Source: an uncultured Clostridia bacterium
GTDB lineage: Bacteria; Bacillota; Clostridia; Christensenellales; Borkfalkiaceae
NCBI GenBank assembly: GCA_947626005.1
Contig: CANQQM010000004.1
Location: forward strand, 1 to 47,238
Length of the DNA: 47,238 nucleotides
Direction of reading: 5' to 3'
Shown here one piece after another: positions 10,069 to 15,058 of the stretch (positions within the stretch are counted from its first letter, which is position 1; the number at the start of each line of letters is the position of its first letter). Made by a program: the position numbers and the translations under genes. Under the pieces are notes generated by a model. The model was not told the DNA's origin, did no database searches, and was given only the letters and a program-made list of their open reading frames with translations.

Positions 10069-12147
10069 TTATCTCACGCTGTACATGATGTCGGTATAGG
10101 TGGGATAGGGCCAATAATCGGAGGAGACGAGCGTCTCCATCTCGTCCGCCGCCGCGCGGACGGCCTCCATATCGGGCACCACGGTATGCGCCATCTTCTC
10201 GGCGGTCTCCCGCTCTCCCGTCGGCATGACGGAGAGGTCCTTTTCGAGTTTTTCGACCGCCTTCATCATCGCCTCGTTGCGGGAGGAGAGCTTTTCCGCG
10301 AGGGCGCAGTCCGTCTTCACGGAGAGTTTTTCGCCGACCGCACGCTTTGCGGAGATCACCGAACAGAGCTCGGCGATGTAGCCGTTGACGGCGGGATAGA
10401 TGTCCCGTCTTGCCATTTCCACCATCGTGCGCGCCTCGATGTTGATGGTCTTGGAGTAGTTCTCGAGCGAAATATTCGCACGGGCAATGACCTCTTTTTC
10501 GGTATATACCCCCTGCTTCACGAACACATCGATGTTCTCTCGGCGGAAAAATTCGGGGACGGCGTCGGCGGTCGTCTTGTTGTTGAGAAGCCCCCTACGC
10601 TCTGCCTCCTTCTCCCAATCGGGACCGTAGCCGTTGTAGTTGAAGATGACGCGGTAATGGGCCTTCAAGAGCTTCTCGGTGTACGTCTTGCACGCCTTCG
10701 GGAAGTCCTTCGCCCCCTCGAGCGCTTCGACGGCCTCGGAGAAGGTCTGGGCGACAATGGTGTTGAGAACGATGTTCGGGTCGGCGACGGACGCCTGCGA
10801 GCCGAGCATGCGGAATTCGAATTTGTTGCCCGTAAAGGCAAAGGGCGACGTGCGGTTGCGGTCGGTCGTGTCGATGGGGAAAATGGGCGATTCGGGAACG
10901 CCGATGGACCCCGGGACCGCCTTCTTCGGCACATATTGCCGCCCGAGGACGATGCTGTCGACGAGGGCGCCGAGCTGATCGCCGAGGTAGACGGAGATGA
11001 TGGCGGGCGGGGCTTCGTTTGCCCCGAGACGGTGATCGTTCCCCGCAGAGGCCACCGATGCGCGCAGGATCCCCTGATAGCGGTCGACGGCGGCGACGAC
11101 GCAAGCGAGAATGAGCATGAAGCGGAGGTTCTCCTCGGGATTGTCCCCGGGGTCGAGAAGGTTGAGCCCGCTGTCGGTGGAGACCGACCAGTTGTTGTGC
11201 TTGCCCGAACCGTTCACCCCCTCGAAGGGCTTTTCGTGGAGAAGGCAGACGAGCCCGTGCTTCTTTGCGACCTTCTTCATGAGCTCCATCGTGAGCTGAT
11301 TGTCGTCGACGGCGACGTTGGTCGTCGTAAAGACGGGTGCGAGTTCGTGCTGGGCGGGCGCCACTTCGTTGTGCTTTGTCTTGGCGAAGATGCCGTAGCT
11401 CCACAGCGTCTCGTCGAGGTCGCGCATGAAGTCGGAGATGCGCGTCTTGAGGGTGCCGAAATAGTGATCTTCGAGCTCCTGCCCCCGCGAGGGCGCCGCG
11501 CCGAAGAGCGTCCTCCCCGTGAGGATGAGGTCCTTTCTTCGGCGATAGACCTCCTCGTCGATGAGGAAGTACTCCTGTTCGGGCCCGACCGTCGTCGCGA
11601 CCTTCCTGCATTCGATGCCGAAGAGCTTCAAAAGCCGCTTCGCCTGCGCGTCGAGCGCCGTCATCGACTTGAGAAGGGGCGCCTTTTTATCGAGCGTCTC
11701 CCCCGTATAGGAGACGAAAACCGTCGGAATGTAGAGCGTCCCCTCCTTGACGAAGGCGGGAGAGGTCGGATCCCATGCGGTGTAGCCGCGGGCGGCGGAA
11801 GTCGCACGCGTCCCGCCCGAGGGGAAGGAGGAAGCGTCGGGTTCGCCGACGATGAGGCTTCTCCCCGTGAGCTGAAGGATGACCTTGTCGCCCGAGGGTT
11901 CGATGAAGCTGTCGTGCTTTTCCGCCGTGAGGTTGGTGAGCGGCTGGAACCAGTGGGTGTAGTGGGTCGCCCCCTTCTTGACCGCCCAGTCCTTCATCGC
12001 ATTGGCGACGGCGCTTGCGATCGAGGAATCGAGGGGTTCGCCCTCGTCGATCGTCTTTCTGAGGGACTTATAGACCTCCCGCGGAAGGGAGTTCTTCATC
12101 ACCTCGTCGTTAAAGACGTTGCAACCGAACATCTCCGTAACGTTCAT
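10069..12147 (-). CDS. glnN: Glutamine synthetase type III
   Basis: 692 residues, the size of the large GSIII class rather than the 440-470 residues of GSI. It makes glutamine from glutamate, ammonia and ATP. Class signatures seen: the N-terminal HYTHWFQPLTNLTAEKHDSF block, TVGPEQEYFLID, AKTKHNEVAPAQHELAP and LHEKPFEGVNGSGKHNNWS (ATP and glutamate binding), then NRTSPFAFTGNKFEFR. The ATG at 12147 has AAGGAGATACAT upstream. First gene of a unit continuing into dut, trmB and the alcohol dehydrogenase, with no terminator visible between them. Confidence 0.97.
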   Translation of the reverse strand: MNVTEMFGCNVFNDEVMKNSLPREVYKSLRKTIDEGEPLDSSIASAVANAMKDWAVKKGATHYTHWFQPLTNLTAEKHDSFIEPSGDKVILQLTGRSLIVGEPDASSFPSGGTRATSAARGYTAWDPTSPAFVKEGTLYIPTVFVSYTGETLDKKAPLLKSMTALDAQAKRLLKLFGIECRKVATTVGPEQEYFLIDEEVYRRRKDLILTGRTLFGAAPSRGQELEDHYFGTLKTRISDFMRDLDETLWSYGIFAKTKHNEVAPAQHELAPVFTTTNVAVDDNQLTMELMKKVAKKHGLVCLLHEKPFEGVNGSGKHNNWSVSTDSGLNLLDPGDNPEENLRFMLILACVVAAVDRYQGILRASVASAGNDHRLGANEAPPAIISVYLGDQLGALVDSIVLGRQYVPKKAVPGSIGVPESPIFPIDTTDRNRTSPFAFTGNKFEFRMLGSQASVADPNIVLNTIVAQTFSEAVEALEGAKDFPKACKTYTEKLLKAHYRVIFNYNGYGPDWEKEAERRGLLNNKTTADAVPEFFRRENIDVFVKQGVYTEKEVIARANISLENYSKTINIEARTMVEMARRDIYPAVNGYIAELCSVISAKRAVGEKLSVKTDCALAEKLSSRNEAMMKAVEKLEKDLSVMPTGERETAEKMAHTVVPDMEAVRAAADEMETLVSSDYWPYPTYTDIMYSVR

Positions 12148-12179
12148 ATGTATCTCCTTGAAAACAGATGCACGTTTTT

Positions 12180-12234
12180 GGGCGCCTCGCGCGCCCACAA
12201 CAATCATTATAGGATTTTCGGGAAACGAAGTCAA
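12180..12234 (-). promoter_or_regulatory. Sigma-A promoter and leader hairpin of glnN
   Basis: TTGACT (12229-12234), 17 bases, TATAAT (12206-12211). The short leader contains a hairpin GGGCGC-GCGAG-GCGCCC (12180-12196) that is not followed by a U run, so it is more likely a 5' stabilising or regulatory hairpin than a terminator. Confidence 0.82.
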
Positions 12235-12338
12235 ACGTTTCGCCGCATATTTTCGCCCGCCGTCCTTTCGCGTTCCGAAACCATGCTATAAGTTTCGCTT
12301 ATATTTCTCCCCGCCTTTCCGAAATTTTCGGAAAAGAG

Positions 12339-12367
12339 TTGTATTTTCGCCCGAGGTGTGCTATACT
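12339..12367 (+). promoter_or_regulatory. Promoter of the structured leader and zinc-ribbon gene
   Basis: TTGTAT (12339-12344), 17 bases, TATACT (12362-12367). The start site would fall near 12374, exactly where the first strand of the leader's closing stem begins. Confidence 0.7.
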
Positions 12368-12373
12368 TGATTC

Positions 12374-12487
12374 GCCACGCAAACCGAATAAAAAAGCAAA
12401 CTCGGGGACCACAATCCTTAGGCATTGTGTATCTCACCCTCGGGAATGCTTTTTCGTGCATCGGTTTGCGTGGCAACAAATCGGAGA
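12374..12487 (+). ncRNA. Structured leader RNA, riboswitch-like, class not recognised
   Basis: A 14-bp closing stem pairs 12374-12387 with 12461-12474. Inside it 12391-12398 pairs with 12447-12454, and a hairpin 12410-12415 / 12424-12429 carries the loop CCTTAGGC. After the closing stem comes AAATCGGAGA (12478-12487), complementary to TCTCCGGTTT (12504-12513) inside the following terminator, so it can act as an antiterminator. I compared it by memory with c-di-GMP, c-di-AMP, TPP, FMN, cobalamin, lysine, glycine, SAM, purine, ZTP, Mn and T-box leaders and found no match. The ligand or signal is unknown; function is inferred from the architecture only. Confidence 0.6.
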
Positions 12488-12496
12488 TACTCATGT

Positions 12497-12534
12497 AGAT
12501 GCGTCTCCGGTTTGGAGCACGCATCTTTTATTTT
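12497..12534 (+). terminator. Intrinsic terminator in the leader (attenuator)
   Basis: Stem 12497-12504 / 12519-12526 plus CTCC/GGAG (12505-12508 / 12514-12517), loop GGTTT, one bulged C, then TCTTTTATTTT. It lies immediately before the ribosome binding site of the zinc-ribbon gene (AAGGAGG 12535-12541), so full termination would silence the gene. Confidence 0.75.
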
Positions 12535-12546
12535 AAGGAGGTTGTT

Positions 12547-14265
12547 ATGCACAAATGCCAAAACTGCGGGACGGAATTCGTCGGAAAATTCTACCCCGAA
12601 TGCGGGACCCCCGCCCCGCAGATCGTCTGCCCGCACTGCGGAGCAGAACTGCGTACGCCGACAAAGTTCTGTCCCGAATGCGGGAATGCGCTCCCCGAGG
12701 GCGTAACTTCCGCCGCGGGTTCCCCTTCGCCTACCGCGCCGCCCCAACCGCCGACCGCCGCAAGCAAGGCCTCTCCTTTCGCCGTCAAGCTCTGCACCCT
12801 GCTCCCTACCGCGGTCGCCGTCCTCTTTGCGCTCTTTTCGGTGCTGCTTTTTCTGTTCTTCCTTGCCCCCGTCGCGACTTCGCTCCTCGGCGCCGTCGGG
12901 AACTTGTATGAATATGCGGGAATGCGCAGCGCGACGCCCTCCGATCTGACTTCGGGAGGAATGGAGGGGATCTTCGGCGGGGACGAGACGCTCGATGCCG
13001 TCCTCGGCGTGAAGACGACGACGAACGCCTGCATCGCGCTCATCGTGTTTGCGGCGATCGGGCTCGCGGCGGCGGGCGTTGCGCTCGCAAGCTGTTTCGT
13101 CCCCTCCCTTCGTGAACGCCGCGTGTTCGGCGTCCGCCTCTCCCTTCTTATCGATTACGCCCTTCTCCTCTTCTATTTCGTCGACTTTCTCCTTGGGTGC
13201 ATCGTCGCAGGGACTTGCGGCGACGAGATCACGAAGCCCGGTGCGGCGCCCGTGCTCGTACTCGTCTTTTCCCTCCTCTTCGGGCTCATTTCCGCCGCCG
13301 CGACAGTTGCGATCGCCCTTCGCGCCAAATTCTTCCCCGCCGCCCATGCGGCGATCGAGGCGGAGAGAAAACGGCGCATCGCAGCGCTGCCCAAACCGCA
13401 GCCGCCTACGGACGCACCCGCGGAAAAGCCGACAAAGCCGACCTTCCGCACCGTCGGCGAACCGTCTAAACAAACCGTCGCCGAGGCCGTGCGCTGTATG
13501 CGGGCGAAAAAGCTGTTCCTCCTCTTCTCGTTGATTGCGTTCCTCATTCTCAGCTGCTACGAAATATATATGGTGGCGATCGCATGGGGACTTCCGCCGA
13601 CGATGATGAATTATGCACCGTCGACTTCGCCGACAAAGCAAGATTTCGTGCGGCGGTATGTTTCGCTTTGGGCGGCGAATGCCAACGAAAAAGGTTGGGA
13701 GCCCGCTCAGTGGCTTATGCTGTTCTGCGTAATGCTCGCGCCCGTTCTGACGGTATTGACCGCCGTCCTCGGGGGCATTTTCGGCAGCAAATACTATAAG
13801 AAATTTATCCCGATCGGGGTGCGGCTTCCCCGCACGGATAAGTTCGAAAGAATGCTCCTGCCTGCGATCGTTTGCGGATTTGCCGCGATTTTGTTTCTCG
13901 ACGGCTTCCTGTTTACCGCCTCCTTCCTCGGGCGGATGCGGAGCGGCGGCATATACGGCTACAGCCAATATAAACAGGGCGACGGTGCCTATGCGTACGG
14001 GAAGTGTGCGCTCGTTACCCTCATCATGTGTGCGCTTTTCCTGATCGCGGAGCTGCCCTTCCTCATCCGTCTTGCCCGTCGGGAGCGAACGGCAAACATC
14101 GCCCTCTACGGCACGGACAAGCCCGAAACGGCGCCCGAATATCTTGCCGCGAAGCGTGAGCACGAAGAAAAGGAGGCCGCATGGCACGACTTTAAGCGGA
14201 GAGAAAGAAAGTACCGCCGAGACCTTGCCCGCTACAAAAGCGGCCTTCCTCCGAAAACCGAATAA
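12547..14265 (+). CDS. Zinc-ribbon multi-pass membrane protein, unknown function
   Basis: 572 residues. The N-terminus has two tandem zinc-ribbon units; the second is complete (C28, C31, C42, C45), the first has C4, C7, Tyr16 and C19, so one ligand is lost. A Pro/Ala/Ser linker (about 52-75) leads to hydrophobic segments at roughly 77-110, 158-182, 194-222, 229-255, 318-345, 383-410, 433-460 and 485-510, interrupted by a charged loop (about 265-315). The C-terminus is a charged, probably helical tail. The ATG at 12547 follows AAGGAGG. Its leader contains an attenuator. I do not recognise a family beyond zinc-ribbon-domain membrane protein. Confidence 0.8.
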   Translation: MHKCQNCGTEFVGKFYPECGTPAPQIVCPHCGAELRTPTKFCPECGNALPEGVTSAAGSPSPTAPPQPPTAASKASPFAVKLCTLLPTAVAVLFALFSVLLFLFFLAPVATSLLGAVGNLYEYAGMRSATPSDLTSGGMEGIFGGDETLDAVLGVKTTTNACIALIVFAAIGLAAAGVALASCFVPSLRERRVFGVRLSLLIDYALLLFYFVDFLLGCIVAGTCGDEITKPGAAPVLVLVFSLLFGLISAAATVAIALRAKFFPAAHAAIEAERKRRIAALPKPQPPTDAPAEKPTKPTFRTVGEPSKQTVAEAVRCMRAKKLFLLFSLIAFLILSCYEIYMVAIAWGLPPTMMNYAPSTSPTKQDFVRRYVSLWAANANEKGWEPAQWLMLFCVMLAPVLTVLTAVLGGIFGSKYYKKFIPIGVRLPRTDKFERMLLPAIVCGFAAILFLDGFLFTASFLGRMRSGGIYGYSQYKQGDGAYAYGKCALVTLIMCALFLIAELPFLIRLARRERTANIALYGTDKPETAPEYLAAKREHEEKEAAWHDFKRRERKYRRDLARYKSGLPPKTE

Positions 14266-14314: not shown

Positions 14315-15013
14315 CTATTCGAAGAAATCCTCTCGGGAGAGCCCGCGGCGCAGCTTTTCGAGCGCCTTCTTCTCGATGCGGGAGACGTAGGAGCGGGAAA
14401 TTTTGAGTTTCTGCGCGACCTCCCGCTGGGCAAGCGGCACCCCGCCCGTGAGCGCGTAGCGGAGGCGGATGATCTCCGTCTCCCGTTCGGAGAGGAGGGA
14501 GCCGATCGCCGTGAGAAACTTCTCCTGCATGAGGGTGCGTTCGACGTTTCCGAATACCTTATCCTCCTTTTCGAAGAGGAGGTCCATGAGGGTGAGCTCG
14601 TTTCCGTCCTTGTCCGTGCCGACGGGATCGGAGAGGGAGACGTTGGACTTGTGCTTCTTCCCCGCGCGGATGAGCATTAAAATTTCGTTTTCGATGCACC
14701 TTGCGGTGTATGTTGCAAGCCGCGTGCCCCGCCCCTCCTCGAAGGTATTGATCGCCTTGATGAGTCCGATCGACCCGACGGAGATCATGTCGTCCGTCTC
14801 GGCGGCGCCGCTGTACTTTTTCACGATGTGCGCAACGAGGCGCATGTTGTGCTTTATCAGCATCTCCTTCGCATGTTCGTCGCCCTCCCTCGCAAGGCGA
14901 AGGCAGCGTTTTTCCTCTTCCGGGGTGAGCGGCCGCGGGTACGAACCGCCGCCCGAAAGTGCGCCTGTAAAAAAGAAAAGCCGCGCAAAGAGCAGACAAA
15001 AAAGCTCCGTCAT
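14315..15013 (-). CDS. sigK: Sporulation sigma factor sigma-K
   Basis: 232-residue late mother-cell sigma factor. It begins with a hydrophobic stretch (about residues 3-20) that fits the pro-sequence cleaved at forespore engulfment. Region 2 (HNMRLVAHIVKKYSGAAE to ARCIENEILMLIRA) and region 4 (AQKLKISRSYVSRIEKKA) match sigma-K more closely than sigma-E. The gene is uninterrupted; there is no skin element. ATG at 15013 with GGAGGTGCCCT upstream. It implies the organism forms endospores, or descends recently from one that did. Confidence 0.92.
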   Translation of the reverse strand: MTELFCLLFARLFFFTGALSGGGSYPRPLTPEEEKRCLRLAREGDEHAKEMLIKHNMRLVAHIVKKYSGAAETDDMISVGSIGLIKAINTFEEGRGTRLATYTARCIENEILMLIRAGKKHKSNVSLSDPVGTDKDGNELTLMDLLFEKEDKVFGNVERTLMQEKFLTAIGSLLSERETEIIRLRYALTGGVPLAQREVAQKLKISRSYVSRIEKKALEKLRRGLSREDFFE

Positions 15014-15028
15014 AGGGCACCTCCACCT

Positions 15029-15058
15029 ATCGTATGCAAAAAAGGTCATGTCCTATGC
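15029..15058 (-). promoter_or_regulatory. Possible sigma-E/sigma-K-type promoter of sigK
   Basis: Minus strand GCATA (15054-15058), 17 bases, CATACGAT (15029-15036), against the known mother-cell pattern ATA - 16 to 18 - CATACAnT. A transcript from it would start at or inside the ribosome binding site, which counts against it. Confidence 0.35.

Follow-up and report, generated by a model that had tools for sequence, protein, structure and literature searches.

The leader that precedes a zinc-ribbon gene in the window, by which we mean the whole 47,238-nucleotide stretch of Clostridia DNA analysed here, is on sequence grounds a real and unclassified cis-acting transcription attenuator, and it is probably a riboswitch. 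Between the promoter and the gene lies an intrinsic terminator with a competing antiterminator, as judged by sequence, energy and covariation, and the structure is kept by compensatory change in homologues. We place a probability of about 0.72 on the reading that the leader works as a promoter-fused relay of mutually exclusive helices. That a small molecule acts as the effector within this relay is, in our estimate, roughly an even bet, and the wider proposal, that of a new riboswitch class, promoter-fused, with a relay of five segments in which the antiterminator strand takes over a hairpin arm via a pseudoknot, and confined in our samples to one class of largely uncultured bacteria, falls somewhat short of even odds. 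Throughout, "riboswitch" is a candidate label only, for an RNA that is predicted to bind a ligand and whose core strand is not strictly conserved.

The elements of the leader are collected in the table. A sequence-only reading of this DNA had described a promoter, a 14-bp closing stem with internal helices, an antiterminator and a terminator that exclude each other, and the ribosome binding site of a zinc-ribbon membrane-protein gene, and all of these are borne out: the closing stem (P1) is perfect, the internal helices P2 and P3 appear in the fold, the antiterminator and the terminator share a strand, and the downstream protein matches the double zinc ribbon of Pfam (the start of its gene was set by hand). 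As for the two partners of the antiterminator strand, here called X, the same reading had recognised the terminator and had missed the decisive one, the core of the apical hairpin P3.

Features of the leader and of the gene that follows it, in positions of the window
Feature	Position	Strand	Basis or pairing
Promoter (TTGTAT 12339-12344, 17-nt spacer, TATACT 12362-12367)	12339-12367	+	Sequence
P1 (closing stem), 5' strand	12374-12387	+	Pairs with 12461-12474, perfect 14 bp in fold
P2, 5' strand	12391-12407	+	12391-12398/12447-12454 and 12401-12407/12438-12444, by fold
P3, apical hairpin	12410-12429	+	CACAAT 12410-12415/ATTGTG 12424-12429, by fold
Core strand GGCATTGTGTATCTC (P3 loop, P3 3' arm and 3' bulge)	12421-12435	+	Alternative partner X 12484-12496
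Unpaired 3' bulge of P3, TATCTCAC	12430-12437	+	Fold
P1, 3' strand	12461-12474	+	As for P1 5' strand
X strand CAAATCGGAGATACTCATGT	12477-12496	+	12477-12487 pairs terminator 5' side (antiterminator); 12484-12496 pairs core (pseudoknot)
Antiterminator, CAAATCGGAGA with TCTCCGGTTTG	12477-12487 with 12504-12514	+	Pairing
Intrinsic terminator	12498-12534	+	Stem 12498-12508/12514-12525, T-tract 12526-12534; 12504-12514 also partner of X
Ribosome binding site AAGGAGG	12535-12541	+	Sequence
Downstream gene, 572 aa, double zinc ribbon then hydrophobic segments	12547-14265	+	Pfam DZR E 6.6e-7, Zn_Ribbon_1 1e-6

For the leader (12372-12535) the predicted fold has an energy of -67.7 kcal/mol, whereas its shuffles average -39.2 (sd 3.7; z -7.7), and none of 200 shuffles folds as stably. 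With core:X left out, the window's antiterminator and terminator states lie at -67.7 and -67.6 kcal/mol, only 0.1 kcal/mol apart, and the terminator hairpin itself amounts to -17.0 kcal/mol. The core:X duplex is worth -13.5 kcal/mol and the opening of P3 costs 5.6, figures from which pseudoknot costs are left out. The -35 hexamer of the window is weak (3 of 6 consensus letters), and a simple promoter scan did not list this promoter; a pattern scan for terminators likewise returned none at the window's leader, probably because the stem is bulged.

The order of the segments, namely the P3 5' arm, the core, X, the terminator 5' strand and the terminator 3' strand, suggests how the leader may operate. 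The core could pair either with the P3 5' arm or with X, and X either with the core or with the terminator 5' strand; these helices exclude each other by overlap, and only two full arrangements would be consistent, one with P3 closed and the antiterminator formed, the other with core:X and the terminator. In the predicted ON state the core would remain with its 5' arm, X would be free to take the terminator 5' strand, and polymerase would go on; in the OFF state a core:X pseudoknot over P1/P2 would let the terminator hairpin form, and transcription would stop. Formation of core:X could nucleate on the unpaired bulge of P3, and its topology seems to require that P2 bend back towards P1. Given that X is made before the terminator and that core:X can form first, the default is likely OFF, and the gene would be turned ON by an effector that keeps P3 closed, the likeliest candidate being a small molecule bound in the P1/P2/P3 body. 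We infer this direction of switching, together with the OFF default and the small-molecule nature of the effector.

The pairings were examined in two sets of leaders. The first holds 102 leaders, namely the 111 covariance-model matches of A2 less nine left out by eye (five opposite-strand matches to the near-palindromic body, and L177, L163, L159 and L171, which are truncated or poor). The second (A4) holds 48 matches, 45 of them distinct, and has no leader in common with the first; it is not phylogenetically independent of it, since seven of its source loci belong to the window's family (L202, L204, L210, L213, L218 and L220 from its genus, and L196). Leaders were taken as non-redundant at a 6-mer overlap below 0.12 (29 in the first set, 37 in both combined) or below 0.2 (25 in the second set). 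In the permutation test the duplex energy of each strand with its own partner was compared with 5000 permutations of the partners, kinship being handled only by the shared-6-mer filter.

In about 98 of the 102 leaders the best duplex between the interior of P1 and X is that of the core against X, mostly with 12-16 pairs; by reading, the best duplex lies outside the core in about four (L121, L145, L155 and L175). The two strands change in concert, GTATCTC/GAGATAC in the window giving way elsewhere to GTACCTC/GAGGTAC, GCGTCTC/GAGACGC, CTTCTC/GAGAAG and AAAAATGCAT..CTCT/GGAG..ATGCATTTTT. Own core:X pairs average -16.3 kcal/mol against -12.7 for permuted ones (z -14.5 in the 102 leaders and -7.8 in the 29 non-redundant), and the second set gives z -8.9 (45 leaders) and -6.5 (25 non-redundant). 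For the X:T antiterminator, in which X pairs with the terminator, the corresponding values are -22.6 and -12.1 in the first set and -12.2 and -9.0 in the second, and for P1 they are -31.6 and -16.6, then -17.1 and -12.5. Over the 37 non-redundant leaders of both sets the P2 arms reach z -22.6 and the P3 5' arm with the core -11.1. For each of P1, core:X, X:T, P2 and P3, own partners beat 5000 of 5000 permutations among the non-redundant leaders. As controls, core:T shows no enrichment in either set (z +2.0 in the 29 and -0.4 in the 25 non-redundant leaders), and neither does core:P1-3' (0.0 and -1.1), although the latter control is not clean in all 45 leaders of the second set (z -3.0, reached by 5 of 5000 permutations).

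Two further pairings fared less well. The complementarity that the sequence-only reading had pointed out between AAACCG of P1 and CGGTTT of the terminator loop is there in the letters, but it is rejected as a pairing, z going from -3.9 in the 102 leaders to -1.3 in the 29 non-redundant; the second set gives only -0.4 in its 45 leaders and -0.7 in the 25 that are non-redundant. A hairpin between the P1 3' strand and X was set aside because its signal is confined to the first set (z -4.6 in the 102 and -3.3 in the 29 non-redundant, reached by 6 of 5000 permutations, against -1.1 and -0.6 in the 45 and 25 of the second), though it may be real in the genus and its near kin.

Pair counts point the same way for P1, which shows both-side changes at 11 of 11 counted pairs with 98.8% of cells paired (77 sequences); the alignment was itself fitted to P1, yet the permutation test, in which no pair counts are used, agrees. 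Core:X and X:T were counted on a covariance-model alignment whose structure contained neither helix. Core:X has both-side changes at 6 of 7 pairs, and P1 and core:X counted jointly score 0.477 against 0.184 when shuffled and at most 0.125 when slid. X:T scores 0.274, compared with 0.157 for shuffles and no more than 0.104 when slid, the number of its pairs with both-side changes (9) being not above that of the shuffles (7.6; 130 of 500 shuffles reach it). Terminator pairs also show both-side changes (18 leaders), and all 37 non-redundant leaders carry a terminator hairpin of between -10 and -19 kcal/mol, followed by a tail of 8-9 nt that contains 5-8 T. In a subgroup from the genus (L006, L007, L010, L013 and L016) GCAGGGC stands just 5' of the terminator, with GCCCTGC or a close variant just past the T-tract, a possible further pairing across the terminator.

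The letters themselves are unevenly kept. Over the 37 non-redundant leaders the conserved ones are those of P1 (CACACAA/TTGTGTG), of the AATA linker after it and of the AACAA that follows the P1 3' strand, P1 and AACAA being the most conserved, in part because the search models select for their letters. The hairpin interior varies, P2 differs in both length and sequence from copy to copy, and the core drifts over the class, from GGCAT..GTATCTC in the window's genus to GGTAAAAATGCAT..CTCT elsewhere. An aptamer for a small molecule would be expected to keep a nearly invariant pocket, and such drift counts against the preferred reading.

The promoter is a fixed part of the element. All but one of 147 leaders have a -10-like hexamer no more than 20 nt upstream of P1, in 108 it ends exactly 6 nt ahead of P1, and a -35 with at least four of six letters is found in 105 of the 147; among control stretches, 117 of 431 carry such a -10-like hexamer. 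As the -10 is locked to P1, the RNA probably starts there (in the window, the start is predicted at or beside the first base of P1), which leaves a leader peptide no space upstream and joins promoter and switch in one cassette. Tandem copies with starts some 180-270 nt apart were seen in seven genomes (G887, G639, G867, G799, G871, G220 and G233) and at L048, L179, L180, L181 and L198; in the five pairs examined every copy carries a -10 of its own, and the tandems are thus repeated promoter-switch-terminator units.

A BLAST-type search of 101 genomes returned 19 hits spread over 13 genomes of the genus, including the window and a second copy in its own genome. Covariance model R1, built from 18 leaders (A1), matches 85 of the 103 genomes searched in the genus, 161 of a family sample of 301 (11 of 18 genera) and 58 of an order sample of 296 (28 of 125 genera). 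Model R2, built from 77 leaders (A3), matches 83 of 341 genomes sampled in the class (53 of 202 genera) and one of 348 in the phylum sample, that one being the window's own genome, which the phylum sample contains along with at least 11 others of the class. Genomes from the narrower groups recur in the samples for order and class (for instance, six of the 83 class matches fall within the same order), and since the samples overlap and 8-28 candidates were scored per genome, these counts are lower bounds. In eight genomes picked for many matches, with up to 150 candidates scored in each, we count 8 to 23 matches per genome, some of them weak (E up to 3e-4); G887 has 23, G867 14, G009 13 and G048 11. 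The window's own genome has three good copies and one weak match (E 0.14).

When named genomes were scanned with an 18-base pattern, 51 stretches were found, of which 46 are titled Clostridia bacterium, and 39 of these 46 come from assemblies named "Lapin", a name that suggests the rabbit gut; the five from other bacteria gave no model match. A phage or plasmid element was considered and rejected, blastn with the window's leader giving no match in phage or plasmid collections, a search that diverged copies would escape. The exact pattern led to four IMG/VR contigs, and a model match is present in one of them (L224, 6412-6583, 55.7 bits, at the end of the contig) and absent from the other three; in L225 and L226 the pattern sits inside a 727-aa ORF that we take to be a phage tail sheath. 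Near the L224 match lie ORFs that are presumably phage-tail-like and transposase-like, so the cassette can adjoin mobile elements.

Downstream ORFs were called by rule (ATG, a purine-rich stretch, at least 60 aa), which left 19 of 150 leaders without one and gave 118 distinct ORFs, two of them being starts of the same gene (L203); the scan covered 117 proteins, truncated at 330 aa. Among the 118 there are 53 lipoprotein-like, 8 zinc-ribbon and 34 other proteins with a hydrophobic N-terminus, the lipobox pattern being crude, with visible false positives at L003 and L147. When only ORFs of at least 100 aa are compared, lipoprotein-like starts make up 53 of 107 downstream against 35 of 215 in the background (Fisher p 9e-10, odds 5.0), the other counts being 7 and 6 for zinc ribbons and 34 and 45 for hydrophobic starts; the background consists of 47 stretches, the window and 46 of the 51 pattern-scan stretches, and is narrower than the downstream set, which spans the class. 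Among the Pfam families listed (25 of 64) for the 117 proteins are LRR_5 (BspA) with 26, Zn_Ribbon_1 with 8, Flg_new with 7, and ABC_tran and MazE_antitoxin with 2 each, and no tRNA or amino-acid gene family is among them. The downstream genes show no metabolic theme pointing to a ligand. Zinc was not singled out as ligand, zinc-ribbon genes being a minority among targets of many kinds (Zn_Ribbon_1 in 8 of 117 proteins), and we reject it. An anti-phage role of the targets was rejected as well, PADLOC matches being scattered, with at most two of the 117 proteins per family.

Two leaders (L190:1690-1929 and L205:1242-1481) are, as read from their sequences, followed by small AbrB/MazE-like proteins, possibly regulators under the same switch. 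In the window itself a sigma-70-type promoter match (TTGACT-17-TATAAT, 11 of 12 letters) at 12206-12234 on the minus strand points away from the leader and faces a large minus-strand ORF, 10069-12234, which we take to be a type III glutamine synthetase. Just past the zinc-ribbon gene lies a further minus-strand ORF (14315-15049), presumably a sporulation-type sigma factor.

Control by a ligand or by a protein had been proposed by the sequence-only reading, and we likewise infer one of the two. It is conceivable, and a serious if on the whole unlikely alternative, that the same relay responds to an RNA-binding protein, or to a factor riding on RNA polymerase, that recognises P1/AACAA, which would make the leader a protein-controlled attenuator. 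The high conservation of P1 and AACAA beside a variable hairpin interior would agree with this, as would the locking of the promoter to P1 and the many copies per genome; yet the P1 letters are enriched by the search models themselves, and the interior helices are kept by covariation, for which a simple binding site has no need.

The near balance of the two states in the window, the drift of the interior sequence and the apparent export of many targets would also be consistent with a bistable attenuator that has no effector at all, one giving a fixed noisy read-through or a temperature response and spreading surface-protein expression among cells. For such a purpose, however, a bare weak terminator would suffice, and the preserved P1-P2-P3 body and the shared core suggest sensing; we regard this possibility as improbable. 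Overlapping segments that form a relay are a classic feature of trp-type attenuators, and in X of several leaders of the genus GGAG is followed by ATG (CGGAGATACCATG), features which speak for ribosome- or leader-peptide-controlled attenuation. We nevertheless reject that assignment and give it very little credence: the position of the -10 leaves no transcribed stretch ahead of P1 in 108 of the 147 leaders (with a -10-like hexamer no further than 20 nt from P1 in 146), X is without an ATG in several relatives (e.g. L002, L019, L187 and L222), and the ATG in X of the window directly precedes TAG.

Known c-di-GMP riboswitches control surface and adhesion genes and occur in many copies per genome, and the window's own genome encodes a GGDEF domain, but a variant of these is a very slight prospect, given that no Rfam family matched, and c-di-GMP was rejected as a general ligand, GGDEF being over the cut-off in only five of nine genomes and not in G009, G048, G887 and G867 (draft assemblies, in which absence is uncertain). 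Diadenylate cyclase was found in all nine genomes searched, and c-di-AMP stays among the conceivable ligands, although the enzyme is common and its presence proves nothing.

Should the wider proposal of a new riboswitch class be correct, the copies, as many as 23 in a genome, would tie much of the exported-protein repertoire to a single signal, perhaps a second messenger that has gone unrecognised or a molecule from the host, and a switch found class-wide would point to a signal used for changing the cell surface. The element would be an orphan riboswitch candidate with unusually many copies per genome, often placed before exported proteins of uncultured Clostridia. The covarying relay makes precise and testable predictions, and ligand screening is therefore possible at once.

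In a literature search the element was not met, and the passages of PMC11109978 and PMC8632094 consulted do not describe it. Rfam 15 gave no match in the window at curated thresholds, and at E up to 10 only three weak and unrelated matches at 12300-12600; the loci of 20 relatives, picked for diversity, gave only three tRNAs. The earlier description of an attenuator of no known class therefore stands, "unclassified" meaning set apart by Rfam 15 and the literature search only.

With transcriptional riboswitches such as SAM-I and purine the leader shares its 5' position, a closing stem, alternative antiterminator and intrinsic terminator helices, and the occurrence of several copies per genome; it differs in having no Rfam match, in a core that drifts widely, and in that X would be captured by the core of an apical hairpin via a pseudoknot and not by the closing stem. 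In T-box leaders, too, a conserved antiterminator strand competes with the terminator, but the Rfam scans held no T-box match, and the leader is not placed among them. Trp-type attenuators likewise consist of overlapping segments, each pairing with the previous or the next, whereas the present leader has one extra segment, a pseudoknot, and no leader-peptide space before P1. The c-di-GMP-I and -II riboswitches resemble it in their many copies per genome and surface-protein targets; here, in contrast, no Rfam family matches, and GGDEF is below the cut-off in four of nine element-bearing genomes. Last, the guanidine-IV and HMP-PP riboswitches are likewise short leaders acting through the terminator, in which the tip of the terminator stem bears the aptamer letters (according to a passage of PMC8632094), whereas the body of the present element is separate from the terminator and lies upstream of it.
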